Assembly (NCBI RefSeq): GCF_024749045.1
Contig: NZ_CP087184.1
Location: forward strand, 5,518,001 to 5,582,000
From: Pseudomonas sp. B21-028
GTDB lineage: Bacteria; Pseudomonadota; Gammaproteobacteria; Pseudomonadales; Pseudomonadaceae
DNA: 64,000 nt
Direction: 5' to 3'
The position numbers were made by a program, and so were the translations under genes. Under the pieces are notes generated by a model. The model saw only the letters and a program-made list of their open reading frames with translations, made no database searches and had not been told where the DNA came from. This document shows, piece after piece, positions 25,764 through 26,992 of the stretch (positions within the stretch are counted from its first letter, which is position 1; each line of letters begins with the position of its first letter).

Positions 25764-26129
25764 CTAATCCGCCATCACCGGCACCCGCTCATCCAACACC
25801 CGATTGGCCAGCAATTCGCTCAGCTCGATCAGCTGTTGCACACCCAGGGCCACATGCCGACGCGAACCGTCAAGCTCGAAGGCCAGGTCGCTGAGCGTTG
25901 CGTTCGCGGATGCCAGGGTTTCGCTGAGATTGGCGAGGAGGCATTCGGCGTCAATGCCTTCCATGACGGTGAATAACTGGCTTGAGGCTGGTTTCTTTTT
26001 GACTTCAGGTGAAGGGGCTAGGTAATAGTCGAGAGCGCGCTTGGCGGCTTCATCGAGCTTTTGAGGATCGAGCCCGCCATGGGCTGATGAGGAATCTGTT
26101 TCAGGGGGATTGGGTGTGACTTTGATCAT
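25764..26129 (-). CDS. DUF6124 family protein
   Basis: A 121-residue, probably helical cytoplasmic protein matching the Pseudomonas DUF6124/DUF3077-like proteins. It begins MIKVTPNPPETDSSSAHGG and contains 'SSQLFTVMEGIDAECLLANL' and 'VALGVQQLIELSELLANRVL'. Function unknown. The start at 26129 has GGAG seven bases upstream; a frame to 26159 lacks one. The gene sits between pilR and thiO, a place where I recall no such gene in P. aeruginosa, so it is part of an accessory insertion. It has an elaborately structured leader (26130-26243) in which the Shine-Dalgarno is base-paired. Confidence 0.8.
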   Translation of the reverse strand: MIKVTPNPPETDSSSAHGGLDPQKLDEAAKRALDYYLAPSPEVKKKPASSQLFTVMEGIDAECLLANLSETLASANATLSDLAFELDGSRRHVALGVQQLIELSELLANRVLDERVPVMAD

Positions 26130-26136
26130 TGTGCAT

Positions 26137-26191
26137 CTCCAAGGTTTTGGAGCTGCCACCGATCGCCGCGACGCGATTGGAGGTGGCAGCT
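26137..26191 (-). promoter_or_regulatory. Structured 5' leader of the DUF6124 gene
   Basis: On the minus strand, AGCTGCCACC (26191-26182) pairs perfectly with GGTGGCAGCT (26160-26151). An inner ATCGC/GCGAT stem is separated from it by an asymmetric bulge. A second hairpin, CTCCAA-AACC-TTGGAG (26152-26137), buries the Shine-Dalgarno GGAG. An identical CTCCAA (26182-26177) is exposed in the bulge of the first hairpin, so the Shine-Dalgarno has two alternative pairing partners. This is the layout of a translational switch, but no ligand or trigger is known. Confidence 0.65.
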
Positions 26192-26229
26192 GTACGCAGG
26201 TTCGCGGACCGAGACCTTAGAAACCCGGC

Positions 26230-26243: not shown

Positions 26244-26522
26244 CCCGCGCACAGCCAGCCATGACAAAACGACAAGTACCAAAGCACAGTCGAGGGCTGG
26301 AATTATGCACTAAGTTAACGGGCCGCGACGCCCGGACGCTGAATTGGCAGCGACCGAAAAAGGTTAGCGATAAGCCTTCCCACCCGGCAACCGCCAAAGC
26401 TCGTCGGAAAAATCAGCTTCAGCTTGGACGTTGTCCGACCATTCCCACAAATCTCGAACGGCTGTCAGCTCGCTCACAACAACTCTGCGGCAACCTGTTA
26501 TTTCTCAGCCAACACCAATCCT

Positions 26523-26613: not shown

Positions 26614-26992
26614 GGAGACCGAGGCCAGCCGCAAGCACAGGTCGGCTGTAGGGCCGCCTCGCTTTTTGGCTTTTGCTTTTGCTTTGCTTTTGATCTTCGG
26701 GCCCCATTAACCACGCTGGCCGAACGCAGGCATTGCGTAGTGGGCAACCCGGCATGGATGCCGGGTTAGCCGCGCTGGGCCATGGATGGCCCTTCGCGGC
26801 GGGCCCACGGAGCAATGCCGGAGTGAGGGCACACCGAGCCTAGGCGAGGTGCCGAGTGGTGGGGCCAAGCCTTTTTTGCTTACTTTTTTTGGCGTTTGAA
26901 AAAAAGTAAGCCGCCGTAAGGGCGGAACCGTAAGTGGCCGTTACCGCAGCAATGGATATGTACTCGACCAAAAACCGTGACCAACCGCAAGG
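26614..26992. repeat. Hairpin-chain intergenic element
   Basis: This gene-free stretch contains five consecutive hairpins between 26746 and 26925. They are AACCCGGCA-TGGA-TGCCGGGTT (26746-26767); a nested GCCGCG/GGGCCAT stem (26769-26800); GGCAC..GTGCC around GCCTAGGC (about 26828-26853); GCTTACTTTTTTT/AAAAAAAGTAAGC (26878-26911); and CCGCC-GTAAG-GGCGG (26911-26925). It is preceded by a (GCTTTT)-like low-complexity tract at 26668-26692. Similar sequences are recalled as common in Pseudomonas intergenic regions. Open frames across it have no start or coding signal. Confidence 0.7.

Follow-up and report, generated by a model that had tools for sequence, protein, structure and literature searches.

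The window analysed here, a stretch of 64,000 nucleotides from Pseudomonas sp. B21-028, carries on its minus strand a gene (25764..26129) for a protein of 121 aa that matches the Pfam model for DUF6124 (PF19619; 103.1 bits, cut-off 27). The locus has no phage genes as neighbours and lies between a gene for a sigma-54-type response regulator, which has many NCBIfam matches, of which those listed do not reach their respective cut-offs, and thiO, which codes for glycine oxidase (271.9 bits, cut-off 250.8). On the plus strand, a TwoAYGGAY RNA (RF01731) is matched at 26742-26806 (55 bits, cut-off 43; model positions 45-113 only). Just upstream of the DUF6124 gene and on the same strand, we find a C4 antisense RNA (Rfam RF01695; 26179..26266) that scores 64.8 bits against a cut-off of 45 over the full model (positions 1-87), and both its sequence and its P1/P2/P3 fold agree with the covariance model. 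C4 RNA is known from phage immunity, and its processing by RNase P gives an RNA of about 77 nt.

Further elements are arranged around this C4, given here from 5' to 3' on the minus strand. A candidate -35 element (TTGCCG, 26385..26390) and a candidate -10 element (TAACCT, 26361..26366), both read by eye against paralogous leaders, precede a 5' hairpin, H1 (GGTCGCTGCCAATTCAGCGTCC, 26334..26355), near which transcription probably starts; a consensus promoter scan of the window reported no promoter. H1 lies inside a match to the c4-a1b1 family (RF03163; 26367-26315), which at 43.2 bits (E 2.8e-9 in the Rfam scan) stays below the cut-off of 46.7 for membership. Two upstream targets follow, a1 (GTCGCGG, 26323..26329) in the loop of a hairpin (26333-26320) and b1 (AACTTAG, 26310..26316). 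In the C4 itself, whose mature form is predicted by analogy with the C4 of phage P1 to span 26260-26182 and would begin with GG as in P1, the loop segment b' (GTTTCTAAGGT, 26214..26224) is antisense to the Shine-Dalgarno sequence (SD): it pairs over 11 nt, three of them as G-U, with ACCTTGGAGAT (26145-26135), which holds the SD. A second segment, a' (CCGCGAA, 26201..26207), is complementary to a1 and also to a2 (GTCGCGG, 26166..26172), a target in the loop of a hairpin (26177-26162) after the C4. The 3' strand of the C4 stem P1, placed by the Rfam alignment and the sequence, occupies 26182..26191. Between a2 and the SD lies an element that we call X (GGTGGCAGCT, 26151..26160), at whose end stands a local anti-SD, CTCCAA (26147..26152). 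The b2 target (26135..26145), complementary to b', includes the SD TTGGAG. All the accessory features of RF01695, namely b2 over the ribosome-binding site, a2 after the C4 and a1/b1 upstream, are present and complementary to b' or a'. The order a1, b1, C4, a2, b2/SD, start codon is that of phage P1, annotated as a1, b1, C4, a2, b2, icd, and the spacing is similar.

Such units recur throughout the complete genome of 6.49 Mb. It contains 36 C4 matches, 35 of them over the cut-off, together with 29 DUF6124 matches and two DUF3077 matches, which agrees with the statement of an earlier note on this DNA that similar DUF6124/DUF3077 genes are multicopy in Pseudomonas and may form a family of regulatory RNAs; DUF3077 does belong to the set. 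Of the 29 DUF6124 genes, 27 (two of these truncated) have a C4 ahead of them in the same orientation, as do both DUF3077 genes; of the remaining C4s, five stand before other small or unclassified genes and two are degenerate copies. One of the DUF6124 genes without a C4 match (L058) is preceded by an apparent remnant of the C4 3' arm and X, and the other (L057) has no C4 remnant. For quantitative comparison, four of the 36 C4s (L042, L052, L055, L056) were left out as truncated, degenerate or having no usable start codon, which leaves 32 units; in one of these (L006) no open reading frame of the required length was present and the start was set by hand.

Using the duplex energy of every C4 loop with every SD region of the 32 intact units, we find that each C4 tends to match its own target. 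Own b':SD pairs average -14.2 kcal/mol and cross pairs -6.6 kcal/mol, the lowest value in 10,000 permutations being -8.88 kcal/mol. Judged by predicted pairing, divergence of the recognition loops has left most C4s with their own gene as the best match: for b' the own partner comes first (ties allowed) in 28 of the 32 units, or in 17 of 32 when the whole P3 segment is used instead of the loop, and the most variable C4 columns lie in the loop. A wider set, drawn from this genome, its relatives and other Pseudomonas, comprised 131 units with an automatically assigned start codon, reduced to 80 at less than 85% identity; C4 matches with no start codon 40-80 nt downstream were dropped, start codons outside the own genome are rule-based and uncurated, and some loci overlap each other. 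Across these 80 units, own b':SD pairs average -14.0 and cross pairs -6.8 kcal/mol (z -29, 0 of 20,000 permutations), and in a choice across genomes the own SD is the first partner of b' in 49 units and among the top three in 69. A b':SD helix of at least 7 bp is found in 76 of the 80 own pairs (it is shorter in the other four) versus 21% of cross pairs, and in 69 of 80 a helix of at least 6 bp contains GGA, AGG or GAG.

Other pairings within the unit are self-matched as well, including a' with a2 (z -15), b' with the upstream region (z -13.4), a' with the upstream region (z -16) and the two strands of P1 (z -14), each at 0 of 20,000 permutations over the 80 units. Paralogs are not independent, yet control segments of the same ancestry carry no signal (C4 5' strand with X, z +0.7; C4 5' strand with SD, z -0.6). 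Taken alone, a' discriminates poorly, its own partner ranking first in 6 of 80 units. When thresholds of -12 kcal/mol for b and -8 kcal/mol for a are combined, 22 of 31 units satisfy both with their own partner, and cross-talk is predicted for 10 of 930 ordered cross pairs; at looser thresholds (-10 and -7) the counts are 29 of 31 and 61 of 930.

Orthologs of the window locus show paired changes on the two sides of these duplexes. Two of them, L069 and L071, retain the C4 unit. In the comparison with L071, b2 differs by C to A and the C4 loop correspondingly by G to T, with a perfect 9 bp there; in the comparison with L069, b1 differs by A to G and the loop correspondingly by T to C. In L070 (P. 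corrugata), L072 and L100 (P. kilonensis), the DUF6124 ortholog occurs without C4, a2 or X, and the promoter region, H1 and the a1 hairpin are joined directly to another SD, which makes these loci a natural C4-less form.

The association of C4 with DUF6124 extends over the genus. A C4 ends within 250 nt upstream of the gene in 61 of 65 DUF6124 relatives from named genomes. RF01695 is matched in 138 of 149 genus genomes, in 137 of them over the cut-off. At family level it occurs in 66 of 99 genomes, spread over 17 of 19 genera. Over 99 genus genomes the copy numbers of C4 and DUF6124 are correlated (Spearman 0.88, with C4 counts taken as floor values and a top class of at least 27); 78 genomes have both, 14 have C4 only, none has DUF6124 only and seven have neither. 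Where a genome has many C4s and few DUF6124 genes, the C4s precede DUF3077 genes, families of about 52 aa and about 80 aa, and others, and many of these other small proteins start MxKxxPDPP.

The DUF6124 protein is predicted to have an N-terminus that is disordered, followed by a single helix and a helical hairpin (a block with pLDDT 92-98 over residues 61-110; overall pTM 0.51), and structure searches returned generic helical pairs only. Among the 120 relatives listed of 843, those with an organism name are all from Pseudomonas. Of 10 small proteins preceded by a C4, one exceeds the cut-offs of both DUF6124 and DUF3077 (43.1 and 25.1 bits), and another three hit both models but stay below the cut-off of at least one of them, which suggests that the two families are related.

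With the whole unit in view, the structure singled out by the earlier note can be placed. That note had described a perfect 10-bp stem with two identical CTCCAA segments as alternative partners of the SD. The inverted repeat is indeed there, formed by AGCTGCCACC (26191-26182) and the X element (26160-26151), as are both CTCCAA copies (26182-26177 and 26152-26147), the second just before the SD (26142-26137) of the gene whose ATG is at 26129. However, the 64-kb window holds 20 distinct perfect inverted repeats of at least 10 bp with spacers of 3-40, where 30 Markov-random windows average 3.4 (sd 1.7), and since the class is about six-fold enriched, a single 10-bp repeat proves little alone and the weight of the stem rests on comparison. 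We find that the stem is a fragment of the larger C4 element, with the 3' strand of P1 as the stem's 5' arm, and the 55-nt stretch on which the note was based cuts the C4 in half. Of 80 related leaders, 61 have a gapless helix of at least 6 bp between this arm and X, yet so do 65% of mismatched pairings. Self-matching of the arm with X is modest but clear (z -5.9; 0 of 20,000 permutations over the 80 units and 26 of 20,000 in the own genome), as the proposed covariation of the stems would have it, and the 3' strand's pairing with X is better seen as an alternative pairing of the C4's own strand. X is also self-matched with the SD (z -4.5 over the 80 units; 240 of 20,000 permutations in the own genome). 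Both pairings discriminate poorly, the own partner ranking first in 1 of 80 units for arm with X and 2 of 80 for X with SD. The first CTCCAA is found in one of the 80 non-redundant leaders, that of the window, and its two close orthologs (L069, L071) have it too, which makes the duplicated segment a local peculiarity; as for the second copy, CTCC adjoins the SD in 40 of 80. The large stem and the local anti-SD hairpin are thus both backed significantly but less strongly, and the place of best-supported partner of the SD passes from either CTCCAA to the P3 loop of the C4 just upstream.

We consider it very likely that the window leader is a C4-type antisense unit and that each C4 represses translation of its own small helical protein. 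The course of events that we infer, from promoter through processing and repression to the roles of a1/b1 and of the protein, would be as follows. One transcript would start near H1 and run through a1/b1, the C4, a2/b2 and DUF6124. The C4 would fold and then be excised, by analogy with phage P1 through RNase P at its 5' end. Binding of b' to the SD and of a' to the a2 hairpin loop would switch DUF6124 translation off, and the upstream a1/b1, which could bind the same C4 loops, would probably buffer or relieve this and may titrate the C4. In the own genome the unit has multiplied to about 35 dispersed copies.

A role for the C4 as the acting RNA can be weighed against control in cis only, in which the CTCCAA/TTGGAG hairpin closes the SD, as a plain ribosome-binding-site hairpin or a thermosensor, and the C4 is a bystander. 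The self-matching of X with the SD fits such control, and so do predicted folds of the leaders downstream of the C4, where at least two of three SD core bases are paired in 61 of 77 cases (three of the 80 leaders, with no recognisable core, being left out). Against this, the match of C4 loop to SD is far stronger and in the window copy extends past the bases of the local hairpin, and we regard cis-only control as quite improbable. The earlier note's broader suggestion of a translational switch, thermosensor or sRNA-controlled leader is sustained in that the locus has the anatomy of RNA-based translational control, but nothing found points to a thermosensor; the Rfam matches at the locus include no described RNA thermometer family, in a scan that a new thermometer family could escape.

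Should the C4 act, it might do so mainly through premature transcription termination, with a1/b1 as the main site, in the manner of the CI RNA of phage P4 with seqA and seqC. The covariation of a1/b1 with the C4 would agree with this, and the available text of PMC4825925 describes P4 SeqA and IsrK as structural homologs and considers that termination may be involved. On the other hand, a consensus scan of the window's minus strand reported no terminator-like site and the b' pairing is centred on the SD, and we consider termination unlikely as the main mode. That the C4s are prophage relics, leftover immunity regions with no present role, is suggested by the first description of C4 in phages, the identical P1 order and the four truncated or degenerate copies among the 36. 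We give this hardly any credence, given a locus set between the response regulator gene and thiO, C4s over the cut-off in nearly all genus genomes, and a match of loop to target that has been kept through two-sided changes.

Within the preferred reading of an antisense unit, the arm:X and X:SD complementarities make a more elaborate arrangement possible, in which the unit is a bistable switch of four segments: the P1 5' strand (1), the P1 3' strand (2, the 5' arm of the 10-bp stem), X (3, its 3' arm) and the SD (4). In the off-state 1 would pair with 2, C4 would be made and X would close the SD (3 with 4); in the on-state 2 would pair with 3, the C4 would not fold fully and the SD would be free. 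The window leader is predicted to fold into two states 1.3 kcal/mol apart (-101.5 and -100.2). In the minimum-energy fold the upper P1 of the C4 coexists with the local SD hairpin and with 8 bp of the stem, so competition would be mainly at the foot of P1. We put the switch forward as a tentative idea and think it somewhat doubtful. If it is true, antisense production and target translation would be mutually exclusive within one molecule, and the about 35 copies, with loops that are mostly self-specific, would amount to a genome-wide array of switches, each turned on or off independently in a heritable or stochastic manner, for a superfamily of small helical proteins.

Comparison with known systems sets these units closest in anatomy to the C4 (RF01695) of phages P1 and P7, with which they share the fold, the order from a1 to the ribosome-binding site, the predicted ends and the pairing of b' with that site. 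They differ in that the target is DUF6124 rather than icd/ant and that they are chromosomal, present in about 35 copies in one genome and mostly self-matched. The X-like stretch of phage P1 forms a duplex of -14.2 kcal/mol with the C4 3' arm, its longest gapless helix being 5 bp. In the phage system, according to the portion available of PMC5320573, RNase P cleavage takes place at the 5' end of the P1 stem and the ribosome-binding site is partly masked by the b' loop, and the passages at hand of PMC12197685 have c4 RNA binding around the ribosome-binding site of ant mRNA. The Group 1 C4-like sRNAs of Acinetobacter baumannii are likewise a large chromosomal C4 group with a variable recognition loop, reported as expressed and apparently processed; their bacterial targets are still open in the available text, whereas here each C4 lies in the leader of an evident target (PMC5320573). 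IsrK/STnc1160 of Salmonella Gifsy-1 is similar in that a leader RNA precedes both a processed RNA and a small open reading frame and that alternative long-range pairings switch translation; it differs in its genes and in that, in the sections available, the short upstream IsrK RNA activates its own long transcript in trans (PMC4825925), a suggestive parallel to a possible role of a1/b1. The IsrK family (RF01394) itself gives a weak match at 26354-26264 (29.7 bits, cut-off 50), which falls short of membership. The CI RNA of phage P4 is also a processed antisense RNA between upstream and downstream targets (seqA and seqC), but works through transcription termination (PMC4825925, in part).

C4 and c4-a1b1 in proteobacteria and phages have already been published (PMC2864571, available in part), and PMC5320573 cites that work for Pseudomonadales in the part available and reports a large C4 group in one genome. 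Leaving aside subscription papers and supplements, our literature search found neither a link of C4 to DUF6124 or DUF3077 nor a self-matched chromosomal set. The excerpt available of PMC2718517 describes for P. fluorescens an intergenic repeat of 101 bp, R178, that encloses an 11-bp inverted repeat and occurs 9-28 times per genome; by description alone, R178 might be a C4 leader.

With about 35 C4s, most of them loop-matched to their own gene, the genome looks like it holds a large and largely self-specific set of RNA switches. One genome offers about 30 cases of a C4 beside its evident target, the loops having changed in concert, and so a natural library for measuring the divergence of antisense pairs and the avoidance of cross-talk, and the uncharacterised multicopy DUF6124 and DUF3077 proteins of Pseudomonas gain a common candidate mechanism of control.

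Several individual loci are of separate interest. At L006 (G000:C1:870041) the C4 is followed by a 28-codon leader reading frame whose stop overlaps, as TGATG, the start of a 178-aa gene, a layout reminiscent of the overlap between icd and ant1 in phage P1; over its first 130 aa the 178-aa protein bears only a weak resemblance to QslA (14.4 bits, cut-off 25). At the DUF3077 unit L003 (G000:C1:337507), the start codon next to the matched SD belongs to a different short frame, and DUF3077 is read in another frame that begins 133 nt after the C4, possibly another coupled pair. One DUF6124 copy (L057, G000:C1:2185959) adjoins a gene that, judged by eye from the sequence upstream of the copy, resembles one for a phage-type repressor, and another (L134, EU982300) adjoins an annotated prtR. 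Short arrays of several C4s within about 0.5-1.1 kb are found at G009:C58, G009:C21, G024:C40 and G023:C45.
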